Assembly: GCA_013150955.1 (NCBI GenBank)
Contig: JAADJD010000027.1
Location: 1-33,521 of the forward strand
Length of the DNA stretch: 33,521 nucleotides
Source of the DNA: Calditrichota bacterium
GTDB lineage: Bacteria; Calditrichota; Calditrichia; RBG-13-44-9; J042
Direction of reading: 5' to 3'
Of the stretch, positions 27,813 to 33,521 are shown one piece after another. The first letter of the stretch is position 1. The number at the start of each line of letters is the position of its first letter. A program made the translations under genes and the position numbers. Under the pieces are notes generated by a model. The model was given only the letters and a program-made list of their open reading frames with translations. It made no database searches and was not told the DNA's origin.

Positions 27813-27987
27813 CCCGGATTATGGATTCGCCTACGAATGACACGAATTGAACGAATAAAAATAATTTGGTGATATCTGGATGAAAATGTGTTCCAGGGTT
27901 TATTCACGATCTTGTGGATATGTCTTGGTTTCATTCGCGTGATTCGCGGTTTAATGAATTATTTGGTTTAACGCATGATTTGGGTTT
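27813..27987 (-). repeat. Interspersed repeat family, copy F (inverted)
   Basis: Reverse orientation. The outer terminus CCCGGATTATGGATTCGCC is at 27813-27831, directly followed by the arm TACGAATGACACGAATTGAA. Core (TCTGGATGAAAA on +) is at 27875-27886. The arm TTTCATTCGCGTGATTCGCGG is at 27929-27949. The distal terminus (GCATGATTTGGGTTT) ends near 27987 after a small insertion. It lies between the flippase and the NtrC-like gene. Confidence 0.85.
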
Positions 27988-28359
27988 GTTGCATCCTTGG
28001 ATTCGTCTGGCAAGTCCCTTTTTCCTGCCAATCAGATGTTCTGAACCCGGCGGGATTGAGGATACCGGCCTGGGCAGCAGCAGGTAGGAAGGCGCGTCCT
28101 GCTGGCATAAAATTTGGACAGTTTTATGGTGCTGGATGTGGAGCTGGAGACAATCTTTCCTGCGGGACAGTGGGAGAAGAAAGCCAGAAAAAGCGATTTA
28201 CCTGTTCCCGAACGGAAGAAGTAGGGATTATCGATTGAAAGCGGGGTTCTGTGGTGGTGAGTGTTGGGAATCGATATCGGGATGTCGGGAGCCACCTGTG
28301 TCAATTTTGCAACAATCCGGTGAATGATGTTGCCGATTGGAAACAGGGGAGTGGAACCC
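27988..28359. other. Intergenic region upstream of the NtrC-like regulator gene
   Basis: 372 bp without a convincing gene. A 32-codon frame near 28126-28224 has no ribosome site. GGGGAGTGG just before 28360 is the regulator's ribosome site. A partial match to a -24/-12 promoter (28103-28118) was considered and not accepted. Confidence 0.35.
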
Positions 28360-30092: not shown

Positions 30093-30121
30093 TTGACATT
30101 CAATGCCCCAGCGGTTATATT
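30093..30121 (+). promoter_or_regulatory. Near-consensus sigma-70 promoter of the TPR/binding-protein-satD operon
   Basis: TTGACA (30093-30098), a 17-bp spacer and TATATT (30116-30121). Transcription from about 30128 would leave a leader of about 44 nt before the AGAGGAGG ribosome site at 30159-30166. Confidence 0.72.
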
Positions 30122-30171
30122 TTCCAGTTGATAATCGGATTCGAAAGAACATTTCGGTAGAGGAGGTTACC

Positions 30172-32016
30172 TTGAGAAAATCACCCATGCGGTTCACCCT
30201 GTTGTGGATTTTTATTTTTACATCCATTGCCTTTACCCAACCATCCGAAGATGCCCTGTTTCAACAGGGATTGTCTGCGTATCAGAAAAAGGATTATGCC
30301 AGAGCACAAACCCTGTTTTTTAAGCAGCTTCAATCCTTTCCACGAGGCCGTCTGGTGACCGCGGGCAAGCTGATGCTGGCAAAAAGTTATTACAAATTGG
30401 GGGATTACAATGCGGTGACCATTCTGTGCCGGGATTTCTTCAAACGCTATCCCGAAAGTCAGTACCTGGACGATATGCACCATTTATTGGGCAATACCCA
30501 CTTCCGGCAGGGGAAGTACGTACCCGCCATCGAGGAATGGTTCTGGGTCGTGGAAAATGGCACCGATGTACGGTTGAAAAAAATTGCTGCTCGATACATT
30601 TATCAGACGGCCAGTCGTTATCTGAGTGAGCCGGAATTGCAAACCCTGCAGCGGCGGTATCGCTCGGGCGTGTTGAATGGATTGTTAACGCTGCTGGAAG
30701 CCCGTCAGCTGCTGGAACAGGGACGGCGCGATCGGGCCGTGGAATTGCTGAACAAGTTCCTGCAGGAACAGCCCAATCATATATATGCGGATCAGGCCCG
30801 GCTGTTGTTGCAGTTTCAACAGAAACCGGTATCGGGGAATCCCACCATCGTTTACCTGAAGTCCATCTTCCCGGACGAAGAACCCGTTAGCGAAGCCATT
30901 GAGCTGGGGATGCGCTATGCGCTGCAGGAGTTTAAAGAACGCAAGAAAGCCGGAGGGGTGGATTTCGTGTCCATCCCGGTTGGCGAAAGTGTATTGAACA
31001 CCTTACAGGCTGCTCAACAGGGCGTCAGCAATAATAACACCCTGGCCCTGGTAGGGCCACTGGATACCGATCAGTGTGCTGCGGTGGCGCTGTTTTCTCA
31101 CTATGAGCAGATTCCATATGTCGTTCCTACCAGTGCGGCGGTGGGTTTCACCGAAATTAGCGAGTTTGCCTTCCAGTTGAATCCCGATGCCGAGACCAAA
31201 GGCCGGTTTCTGGGGAATTATGCCACCCGGGAGATGGGACTGAAAACCCTGGCAATTCTGGCGCCCGTCAGCGAGTACGGAGAAAGTTTTGTGCACAGTT
31301 TTATTGAGGCAGTTCAGGCCAACCAGGCCGAAGTGGTGACCACTCAGTGGTATTACGAGGACACCCAGGATTTCACCCGCCAGTTTCGGGCCATTCGAAA
31401 AAAGGGATTTTTTGTTTTTTATCGAGATTCCATTCGGCAGGTAGATTCGACCCTCTCGGATGAGGCCATCCAGAAAGGTTTCCGGGAGTGGATGGATGAA
31501 AAATTTTCCGCCAAAAAATTTGGCGCCAAGGTGGATTCCACGCAGATCCCATCCACCGGGATAGATGGTTTGCTAATCATCACCTCTCCCGATCTGATTC
31601 CTATTATTGCCTCACAATTTGCGTTTCACAACATCCAGTGTACCCTGCTGGGTAACGAAGGGTGGAATCATCTGGAGGCGTTGCAGAAAAATAAGGACTA
31701 TCTGCCGGATCTGGTGTTCATCAGTGCGGCGTATTACGATCCACAGTCCTGGGAATATCGCCAGTTTGTGACCCGCTTCCGAAGCCGGATGAAAACCACG
31801 CCGGAACTCTTTCACATGCTGGGTTACGATCTGATGACCTGGATGCTGGAGAAATACCGGCCGGCCATCACCCGGCAGGAATTTGCCTCTCGCCTTACCA
31901 ATCCCGGGAAATACCAGGGCATTGTGGAAAACATTGAGTTTCGGGAAAAGCCCAGAATTAACAGCCATCTTTTTGTGCTGCGGTTCAAGCTGGGCCAGTT
32001 GTTGAAGGTGAAATAA
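30172..32016 (+). CDS. TPR protein fused to a type-1 periplasmic-binding fold (LpoA/LppC-like)
   Basis: 615 aa from a TTG at 30172, chosen because AGAGGAGG lies 5 nt upstream; ATG at 30187 is the alternative. A Sec signal (LLWIFIFTSIAFTQ) is followed by about five TPR units (residues 20-220: SAYQKKDYARAQTLFF, AKSYYKLGDYNAVTILC, LGNTHFRQGKYVPAIEEW and others). A Peripla_BP_6-like domain runs from about 225 to 610 (VYLKSIFPD, ALVGPLDTDQCAAVALFSHYEQIPYVVPTSAA, LAILAPVSEYGESF, GLLIITSPD). TPR plus binding fold is the layout of the penicillin-binding-protein activator LpoA and of some transporter-like receptors. No lipobox is visible and no permease gene is nearby, so a direct transporter role is less likely. 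satD follows 12 nt later. Confidence 0.85.
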   Translation: MRKSPMRFTLLWIFIFTSIAFTQPSEDALFQQGLSAYQKKDYARAQTLFFKQLQSFPRGRLVTAGKLMLAKSYYKLGDYNAVTILCRDFFKRYPESQYLDDMHHLLGNTHFRQGKYVPAIEEWFWVVENGTDVRLKKIAARYIYQTASRYLSEPELQTLQRRYRSGVLNGLLTLLEARQLLEQGRRDRAVELLNKFLQEQPNHIYADQARLLLQFQQKPVSGNPTIVYLKSIFPDEEPVSEAIELGMRYALQEFKERKKAGGVDFVSIPVGESVLNTLQAAQQGVSNNNTLALVGPLDTDQCAAVALFSHYEQIPYVVPTSAAVGFTEISEFAFQLNPDAETKGRFLGNYATREMGLKTLAILAPVSEYGESFVHSFIEAVQANQAEVVTTQWYYEDTQDFTRQFRAIRKKGFFVFYRDSIRQVDSTLSDEAIQKGFREWMDEKFSAKKFGAKVDSTQIPSTGIDGLLIITSPDLIPIIASQFAFHNIQCTLLGNEGWNHLEALQKNKDYLPDLVFISAAYYDPQSWEYRQFVTRFRSRMKTTPELFHMLGYDLMTWMLEKYRPAITRQEFASRLTNPGKYQGIVENIEFREKPRINSHLFVLRFKLGQLLKVK

Positions 32017-32028
32017 ACGGCTGCCGGG

Positions 32029-32682
32029 ATGAACACGCTGCAACTACACAGCTACTACCTGGCCATCATCGGGGATATTGTGCGTTCCCGGGAAATTGAA
32101 AACCGAAAGGCCTTCCAGCGGCAATTTCATCGCGTTATGGCGGAATTGAATCAGCAATTTCAATCGGAAATTGTGTCCCCGTTTACCGTTACCCTGGGGG
32201 ACGAGTTTCAGGCATTATTGCATCGCGCCGATGCGCTGTTTGAAATTTATCGGTTTCTGCACCAGCAGTTACATCCCCGGCAGCTGGTGATTGGTGTGGG
32301 GGTGGGCGAGATCGAGACCGAAATCAATCGGGAATCGTCCATAGGAATGGATGGCCCCTGTTTGCGGCTGGCCCGCGAAGAAATTGAGGCCGCCAAGCGT
32401 CAGCCCCCCCGATTGCGATTTAACGTTCAGGGATTGGAAGTGCCCGTTTTAAATGTGCTGATGCAGCACATCGAACGGCTGGAGGCAAAACGCACGCCGC
32501 GTCAGCGGGAAATTGTGGCGGTCTATCGGAACGTTCGACATCAGGAAACCGTCGCCCGGCAGCTGGGCATCTCCCAGGCAGCCGTTAGCCAGGCGCTGGA
32601 AAACGCCCATTATTTTCTGGTGGAGGAAAGTCAGGCGGCCATCGTGCAATTTCTGAATCAGTTTATAAAACCCATTGTATAA
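32029..32682 (+). CDS. satD: SatD-family protein: cyclase-like fold plus C-terminal HTH
   Basis: 217 aa. The first about 145 residues match SatD: YYLAIIGDIVRSREIENR, then SPFTVTLGDEFQALL, then a helix, LVIGVGVGEIETEINRES and MDGPCLRLAREEIEAAK. This order (D-I-x-x-S; G-D-E-F; G-x-G-x-G-E; G-x-x-x-x-x-A-R) resembles class III nucleotidyl cyclases, including both metal-Asp positions. That resemblance is my inference. Residues about 160-200 form a helix-turn-helix (RQREIVAVYRNVRHQETVARQLGISQAAVSQALENA). SatD has no established biochemical function. It is 12 nt downstream of the binding-protein gene with only a weak ribosome site, so it is probably co-translated in the same operon. The stop codon overlaps the first dyad of the array that follows. 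Confidence 0.85.
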   Translation: MNTLQLHSYYLAIIGDIVRSREIENRKAFQRQFHRVMAELNQQFQSEIVSPFTVTLGDEFQALLHRADALFEIYRFLHQQLHPRQLVIGVGVGEIETEINRESSIGMDGPCLRLAREEIEAAKRQPPRLRFNVQGLEVPVLNVLMQHIERLEAKRTPRQREIVAVYRNVRHQETVARQLGISQAAVSQALENAHYFLVEESQAAIVQFLNQFIKPIV

Positions 32683-32757
32683 GCGATATGGCTTATATGT
32701 GTTGTGCATAAGTAATATTGCTTATATGTTCCCTTTATAAGGTGAATCGCTTATATG
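32679..32757. promoter_or_regulatory. Array of three dyad operator-like sites, 29-bp period
   Basis: Three 18-bp sites of the form ATAAG-N7-GCTTAT: ATAAGC-GATATG-GCTTAT at 32679-32696, ATAAGT-AATATT-GCTTAT at 32708-32725 and ATAAGG-TGAATC-GCTTAT at 32737-32754. Each GCTTAT is followed by ATG. Site-to-site spacing is exactly 29 bp both times. The intervening bases are not conserved, which is typical of protein-binding sites and not of a recent tandem duplication. Confidence 0.7.
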
Positions 32758-32814
32758 GTCCTTCCGGCCGGACGACAGGATGCATTGCGCGGTTTGGGAT
32801 GGAGGATGCAGGAA

Positions 32815-32965
32815 GCGGTTGGGGCAAGCTGAGTCATTGGGCTGCCTCGTTCGCCAGATCCGGTAGAAGGACCAATCCGAAACGTCGGGTTCTGGTGGTG
32901 GACGGAATATTTTGGATTCGGTCGTCAGTGGATTCATCCGCCAAAATAGGCAACGAGGCAACCGC
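32815..32965. other. Nested imperfect inverted repeat (about 150 nt), possible structured RNA or small element
   Basis: GCGGTT (32815-32820) pairs with AACCGC (32960-32965). TGCCTCGTTCGCC (32843-32855) pairs with GGCAACGAGGCA (32949-32960) with one bulge. Inside, GGACCAATCCGAAA (about 32869-32882) pairs with a TTTTGGATTCGGTC segment (about 32911-32924). The stems are nested, so the whole can fold as one long imperfect hairpin. No T-run follows. No known family was recognised. Confidence 0.4.
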
Positions 32966-33028
32966 AAGGTAAGAATCCGTAAAAAAGGGTTTATCGGTAT
33001 AGAACCATCAATTGCTAACAATTTGCCA

Positions 33029-33521
33029 ATGTCCATGACGCCTCAGACCTGTCAATTGCTGGTGAGTGTACTGCTGGCTTATTCGGTGGCTTATTTCTGG
33101 GTTATCTTTCGTGGAAATCGTGTGCAGAAGCCATCGGATTGGCAGGATGCCTGGCGGAATGGATGGAAATTTTTGTTGCCGCATCTGGTATTGGCGATTG
33201 CCCTGCCAAATTGGACAGTGGCGGGATATCTTTTCGCCGTGACGGTTGCGGTTGTACTGATTGTTCGTTACACCCACTGGCTGGACATGCCGGCCAGCCC
33301 GCTGCAGTTTACAGGGGTACAACTGGTTGCTGCCATCCATATCGCGATAATGATCCATCTCCTTCAAGGGACTTCCAGTTCCTGGATACAGCAGTGGGGG
33401 GTCGGGCGTGGGGAATGGTTGCTTCCCCCGGGAATATTTTTCCTGGCGATGTGGTATTTTGTTGGGTTTCTCTGGATGGTCTGGGGTGGCACCGCCTTTG
33501 TTCGCGCGGTGCTGGCGCCTT
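33029..33521 (+). CDS. Integral membrane protein, possibly DUF3307-like, 5' part (runs off the right edge)
   Basis: 164 codons are visible, from ATG at 33029 (or 33035, MTPQTCQ). There is no strong ribosome site. At least four hydrophobic helices are present (about residues 8-27, 48-80, 95-112 and 133-153). The motif order LLLAYxxxxFW, then PHLVLAI, then an H-W-L-D helix end, then QLVAAIHIAIM, then a terminal helix with a G-x-x-x-V-R end, loosely follows the DUF3307 membrane family. DUF3307 genes are often next to satD in Bacteroidota, as far as I recall. The identity is tentative. The dyad array and the nested hairpin both lie in its upstream region. Confidence 0.6.
   Translation, partial: MSMTPQTCQLLVSVLLAYSVAYFWVIFRGNRVQKPSDWQDAWRNGWKFLLPHLVLAIALPNWTVAGYLFAVTVAVVLIVRYTHWLDMPASPLQFTGVQLVAAIHIAIMIHLLQGTSSSWIQQWGVGRGEWLLPPGIFFLAMWYFVGFLWMVWGGTAFVRAVLAP

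Follow-up and report, generated by a model that had tools for sequence, protein, structure and literature searches.

The closest working analogue of the arrangement described here is NrdR, a nucleotide-sensing repressor that acts at two palindromic boxes placed at a fixed distance, makes oligomer contacts (PMC9110341, PMC12051234) and has a preference for boxes whose centres are separated by whole helical turns, usually three (PMC12051234). While paired boxes at a fixed distance resemble the dyads found beside genes of the SatD family, NrdR is built from a zinc ribbon and an ATP-cone, both of which SatD lacks as judged by Pfam and by its predicted fold (SatD has a palm domain and a helix-turn-helix [HTH] instead). 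Moreover, the SatD arrays comprise between two and five dyads with a step of 28 or 29 bp, which does not correspond to whole turns at 10.5 bp per turn, and, unlike those of NrdR, their half-sites differ between lineages. The PucR-type regulator MabR (Rv2242) resembles SatD in joining a GGDEF-like domain to an HTH (PMC11617747), but has an extra N-terminal globin-like domain and another family of HTH. Class III nucleotide cyclases, the Cas10 palm and the Panoptes mCpol (OptS) have the same palm fold as the N-terminal domain of SatD; unlike in these proteins, the palm of SatD is joined to an HTH, and the membrane protein with which SatD pairs is of another kind. The founding member of the Pfam SatD family is the protein encoded in the streptococcal sat operon. 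The streptococcal sat genes have been tied to acid tolerance in work cited by a transposon survey, which itself found satD of Streptococcus pyogenes to be an essential accessory gene (PMC11323703). In the openly accessible literature searched, we found no paper describing a DNA-binding role or an operator for SatD. We propose SatD as a new family of regulators, of a kind (regulators with tandem operators) that is already known.

The locus analyzed here is located in a stretch of 33,521 nucleotides from a Calditrichota bacterium (contig JAADJD010000027.1; "the window" refers to this whole stretch), which includes the following features:

30103 to 32016, + strand: upstream gene encoding TPR repeats and a periplasmic-binding-protein-like domain; ends 12 bp before satD
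32029 to 32682, + strand: satD (217 aa; Pfam SatD, PF16264), encoding the proposed operator-binding protein
32053 to 32427, + strand: nucleotide-cyclase-like palm domain of SatD, residues 9-133 (sequence conservation, AlphaFold2, Foldseek)
32497 to 32604, + strand: C-terminal HTH of SatD, residues 157-192 (Pfam, AlphaFold2, half-site covariation)
32575 to 32604, + strand: predicted recognition helix of SatD, residues 183-192, which covaries with the half-site
32679 to 32696, no strand: candidate operator dyad 1, ATAAG-N8-CTTAT, ATAAGCGATATGGCTTAT; only the right arm is present in G001, the whole dyad at the same place in G003
32708 to 32725, no strand: candidate operator dyad 2, ATAAGTAATATTGCTTAT; starts 29 bp after the start of dyad 1 and is present in register in G001 and G003
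32737 to 32754, no strand: candidate operator dyad 3, ATAAGGTGAATCGCTTAT; starts 29 bp after the start of dyad 2; G001 and G003 have degenerate copies in register
32755 to 33028, no strand: interval of 274 bp separating the array from the partner gene; missing or strongly reduced in three family relatives (G001 to G003)
33029 to 33521, + strand: partner membrane-protein gene (254 aa), starting at about 33029 and continuing to 33793 beyond the window; proposed target of the array

In addition, a small HNH-type gene overlaps the end of the partner gene (L005 11790-12065, corresponding to window coordinates 33790-34065, beyond the window). Elsewhere in the window, short tandem repeats at 27833-27983 (ACGAATGA; GGTTTAACGAATGATTT x 2.1), possibly binding sites, precede a sigma-54-type response regulator gene at 28324 by approx. 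350 bp.

The SatD protein encoded in the window belongs to the Pfam SatD family (PF16264; E = 2.8e-34, 119 bits against a cut-off of 29), and Pfam searches found only SatD and HTH matches in it. Structure prediction (AlphaFold2, pLDDT 95.6) shows a palm domain followed by an HTH; the C-terminus resembles HTH domains of the sigma-70 region 4 type, with weak matches to known HTH families. Foldseek matches of the palm included class III nucleotide cyclases (E of 1e-4 to 1e-3 for mycobacterial cyclases), the Cas10 palm, GGDEF domains and the Panoptes mCpol. D16 and G57-D58, which are located at the two metal-binding positions of the palm fold, were invariant in 60 sequences. On its predicted fold and these two acidic positions, SatD falls into the class III nucleotide cyclase/palm superfamily, and the conservation of both metal-site aspartates (D16 and D58) makes a ligand or product at the palm plausible. 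A C-terminal fragment of Rv2242 was the third Foldseek match of SatD, with poor superposition (TM of approx. 0.27, rmsd 13); Pfam found no PucR match in SatD, and GGDEF_2 appeared only at E = 0.08, below the cut-off. No PADLOC match was obtained for SatD, the partner or the HNH gene with the 2023 library, which is older than the description of Panoptes and hence tests only weakly for this system.

An earlier note on this DNA had reported three dyads at an exact 29-bp period after satD, with the array beginning on the satD stop codon. Both observations hold: the dyads, with the symmetric form ATAAG-N8-CTTAT, occupy 32679-32754 in exact 29-bp steps, and the stop codon TAA (32680-32682) is located inside the left arm of dyad 1. 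Allowing one mismatch, 0.62 matches to ATAAG-N8-CTTAT would be expected in the window, while three exact matches were found, all in the array. In the 4.07-Mb genome, however, this pattern occurs four times (including the three dyads of the array), as compared to seven times for the reversed control pattern; tandem pairs of dyads 29 bp apart occur twice, both in the array (0 for the reversed control). As single dyads are thus not rare genome-wide, the significant feature is the 29-bp tandem arrangement. A wider regulon of SatD sites in the source genome is not claimed, since the search found one further single dyad beyond the array, and single dyads were fewer than for the reversed control. The earlier note also described the sites as slightly rotated relative to each other; at 10.5 bp per turn, a step of 29 bp instead corresponds to -85 degrees, and a step of 28 bp to -120 degrees.

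In the genomes of a relative from the same genus (G001) and of two relatives from the same family (G003 and G002), an array is located between satD and the membrane-protein gene as in the window. Compared to the window, the arms were identical at 25/30 positions in G001 and 27/30 in G003, while the dyad centres were identical at only 12/24 and 13/24 positions and the spacers at 8/22 and 6/22 positions, respectively; G002, with two degenerate dyad copies, represents the weakest case. The selection on the sites proposed in the earlier note is thus borne out by arms conserved over spacers, and, of the two outcomes that would have counted against a regulatory element (no motif beside orthologous satD genes, or a period lost in close relatives), neither was observed. 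The note also placed the array before a membrane-protein gene; the gene order is correct, but the gene starts 275 bp after the array in the window. In the three family relatives, the partner start codon is near or overlaps the last dyad. The interval at 32755-33028 may represent an insertion or a long leader.

Among 40 genomes of the class, the N8 form of the pattern was found only beside satD in the family of the window, and in other families the array is located upstream of satD, with the forms ATAAG-N7-CTTAT (families f4 and f5) and ATAAC-N7-GTTAT (family f6). A genome-wide search of the same 40 genomes for N7 forms, which was blind to the location of satD, found 17 places (two matches for the reversed control), of which 13 were within approx. 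250 bp of satD, two were at a contig end in G029 (where satD is cut by another contig end), one was upstream of a lipoprotein-like gene in G019 and one was elsewhere, in G033. Together with the gene order, these data indicate that the array represents, in most of the class, the promoter region of an operon of satD and the membrane-protein gene. In the window, the upstream gene ends 12 bp before satD, and satD is thus probably located on its transcript rather than driven from the array; the same TPR/periplasmic-binding-protein-like gene also precedes satD in G001 to G003. Judging from this gene order, satD apparently came under the upstream gene in the family of the window, and the array stayed with the membrane-protein gene. 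As to the site in G019 (G019:C261; L135 1830-1890), two ATAAG-type dyads 29 bp apart are located directly upstream of the lipoprotein-like gene; G019 is a metagenome-assembled genome, 80% complete, in which no SatD was detected, and its dyads possibly represent a second target or a relic of a lost satD.

We also read SatD loci from Bacteroidota, Balneola-type bacteria and one further phylum, as well as plasmid loci from haloarchaea, Sphingomonas and Agrobacterium. Arrays located upstream of satD recur in other phyla. The half-sites vary considerably (e.g., TTTCC/GGAAA, TTTCA/TGAAA, TTGCA/TGCAA, TTAAC/GTTAA, ATCGG/CCGAT, ACAAC/GTTGT), yet the dyads still repeat at 28 or 29 bp. When any period from 20 to 40 bp was allowed, the best dyad period among 96 regions was 29 bp in approx. 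50 and 28 bp in approx. 16, as compared to approx. 4.5 each in dinucleotide shuffles; among loci fetched after the idea had been formed, 28 or 29 bp was chosen in 24 of 33. After clustering at 60% identity, 28 or 29 bp was the best period in 52.8 of the 66 non-redundant loci (approx. 6 expected; binomial value of approx. 1e-40 for a chance of 2/21 per locus, with residual relatedness ignored), as compared to 3.9 of 69 and 4.3 of 70 control regions further upstream and downstream, respectively. When the f1, f4/f5, f6 and f3 groups were pooled, a lag of 29 also ranked first among 72 lags. Approx. one fifth of the non-redundant loci showed no clear 28/29-bp array. The automatic dyad caller sometimes takes the mid-point dyad between two palindromes (e.g., in L088), and low-score calls of single half-sites are unreliable; the hold-out phylum of G090, with five genomes, is too small. 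Overall, comparison across loci shows a fixed-period array associated with SatD family-wide. The site in the window is no peculiarity of its genome; it represents one among many variants of an element that occurs throughout the SatD family.

Loci with a DUF3307 partner usually have the 28-bp form and those with another membrane protein as partner the 29-bp form, with exceptions (e.g., L083 and the haloarchaeal L128). Three haloarchaeal plasmid loci (L128, L129 and L134) carry SatD, a membrane partner and 29-bp dyad arrays, and in two of these the SatD is 35-36% identical to that of the window; transfer of the SatD module between domains, i.e., between bacteria and haloarchaea, seems likely.

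We propose, with a probability of approx. 0.8, that the array is a tandem operator on which SatD dimers would occupy dyads 28 or 29 bp apart, probably repressing the membrane-protein gene. One SatD dimer would read each dyad of 17-18 bp, and neighbouring dimers would touch each other, presumably with cooperativity. Such contacts would best explain why the step is invariant although the half-sites vary: the period would reflect protein-protein packing, and the half-site sequence would drift as the recognition helix changes. With a rotation of -85 or -120 degrees per step, successive dimers would wind around the DNA rather than line up on one face. In most relatives, the promoter of the array would drive the operon of satD and the membrane-protein gene, making SatD autoregulatory; in the family of the window, with satD behind the upstream gene, the array would control the membrane-protein gene alone. 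The suggestion in the earlier note that the array regulates this neighbouring gene gains support from the comparison across loci.

The arrays, mostly of three dyads, end close to the gene (the last dyad is located at a median of 18 bp before the start codon), and repressors usually act from such a position at the promoter near the start codon. A dyad is located within a TTGACA-N16/17-TATATT promoter in both L011 and L028, and TATATTTG boxes occur at or beside the arrays of several other loci; a scan of the window, including its array, recognized no sigma-70-like promoter, which, like the 275 bp that separate array and target gene here, counts against the proposed operator. Bound SatD would hence most likely repress a promoter inside or next to the array, a direction we infer from the position of the arrays and from satD being accessory yet essential in S. 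pyogenes, which would fit a repressor of something harmful. Alternatively, SatD could activate from the array, or switch in both directions depending on a nucleotide bound by the palm. Recruitment of polymerase by upstream arrays is conceivable, and the retained D16 and D58 leave room for a ligand or product; we nonetheless consider activation or two-way switching possible but unlikely, given arrays that end so close to start codons and overlap promoter-like elements in several loci.

Half-sites vary together with the recognition helix of SatD. SQxxVSQ helices pair with ATAAG in families f1, f4 and f5 and again in Bacteroidota (L083 and L084), and the SQPAVSK helix of f6 pairs with ATAAC; VYK helices occur with TTAAC, TCAAC or TGAAC, VSE helices with ATCGG or ATCTG, aromatic-K-R helices mostly with TTTCA and aromatic-R-R helices with TTGCA. 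The last residue of the helix motif (K/R vs. Q/E) was associated with the inner base of the half-site (C vs. other; P of 1e-4 to 1e-6 depending on the score cut, Fisher's exact test), and helix similarity explained half-site similarity beyond the relatedness of the palm domains (partial Mantel r = 0.44-0.65; P = 0.0002 for each of the three cuts). A VSE helix with an inner C, as found in L128, is an exception to a simple code, and the four tree-based independent K/R vs. Q/E pairs, of which two were concordant and two had unreliable or absent arrays, are too few on their own. A second SatD paralogue (B) of the class, with the helix QAV[CW]D (G000:C3:7130-7735, L093; equivalents in approx. 20 relatives) serves as an internal negative control, as a dyad array was found in 0 of 9 paralogue B clusters; a membrane partner was absent in 22 of 23 cases and present in one. 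The covariation revealed by this comparison supports SatD as the binder of the array, and with it the nomination of the SatD HTH in the earlier note. A different (e.g., global) regulator that binds the array and controls satD operons without any contact by SatD could draw on the weak matches of the SatD HTH to known families, but appears improbable, as the half-site follows the SatD helix even with palm-domain relatedness controlled, as paralogue B, with another helix, lacks the array, and as tandem dyads are nearly absent elsewhere in the genomes, unlike the sites of a global regulator.

The inverted repeats located just past the satD stop codon could also form hairpins, and we consider it very improbable that they act at the RNA level to terminate, attenuate or process the transcript behind satD. 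Folding of the array can give a single long structure, but this fold is not better than those of shuffled sequences (z = -1.38) and the region has no Rfam match; in most relatives, moreover, the array is located upstream of satD at the promoter, and hairpins would not need a fixed period of 28 or 29 bp with variable arms. A chance repeat in an AT-rich stretch, for which one could cite the genome-wide frequency of single ATAAG-N8-CTTAT dyads, which does not exceed that of the reversed control, is already refuted by the register kept in relatives and by the family-wide period as compared to matched controls.

Comparison across loci also shows a conserved membrane partner, the putative target of the array. 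A C-terminal motif (G-x2-IG-x2-ER...AxKxxxRF...FAEYxLIGTL) was found in the partner at 87 of 109 non-paralogue-B loci and in the neighbour of satD in the window. This segment is common to all partners, and ten of its positions, among them G-x2-IG-x2-ER, K, R, Y and G, do not vary across the 44 long forms. The N-terminus of the long partners is either DUF3307 (L083, L115 and L128) or, in the class of the window, a different one, and short partners have neither. The partner in the window had no Pfam match, including DUF3307 (PF11750), and PF11750 was likewise not found in the partners of L009, L011, L019, L020, L038 and L065. The label "DUF3307-like" used in the earlier note was accordingly rejected for the window's partner in the sense of a profile match; what remains of it is the C-terminal part shared with DUF3307 proteins that accompany SatD elsewhere, by which the partner belongs to the same partner family as these proteins. 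Its fold was predicted with moderate confidence (pLDDT 84), and comparison of the model to the PDB yielded no informative match. A search of a viral fold library was uninformative.

It is tempting to hypothesize that SatD represents a hitherto undescribed class of nucleotide-responsive regulators, in which the palm would bind or make a nucleotide signal that assembles or dissolves the oligomer on the dyad ladder (approx. 85 to 120 degrees per step), freeing a conserved membrane effector that does harm when left unchecked. Such a guard-like or toxin-repressor module, present in bacteria and haloarchaea, is doubtful at this stage. Overall, the array gives the functionally empty SatD family a testable job and provides ready-made candidate binding sites for many lineages. 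It also represents a natural experiment on the evolution of a recognition code at constant operator spacing. Should the palm sense or make a nucleotide, SatD would be a new palm-HTH type among one-component regulators.
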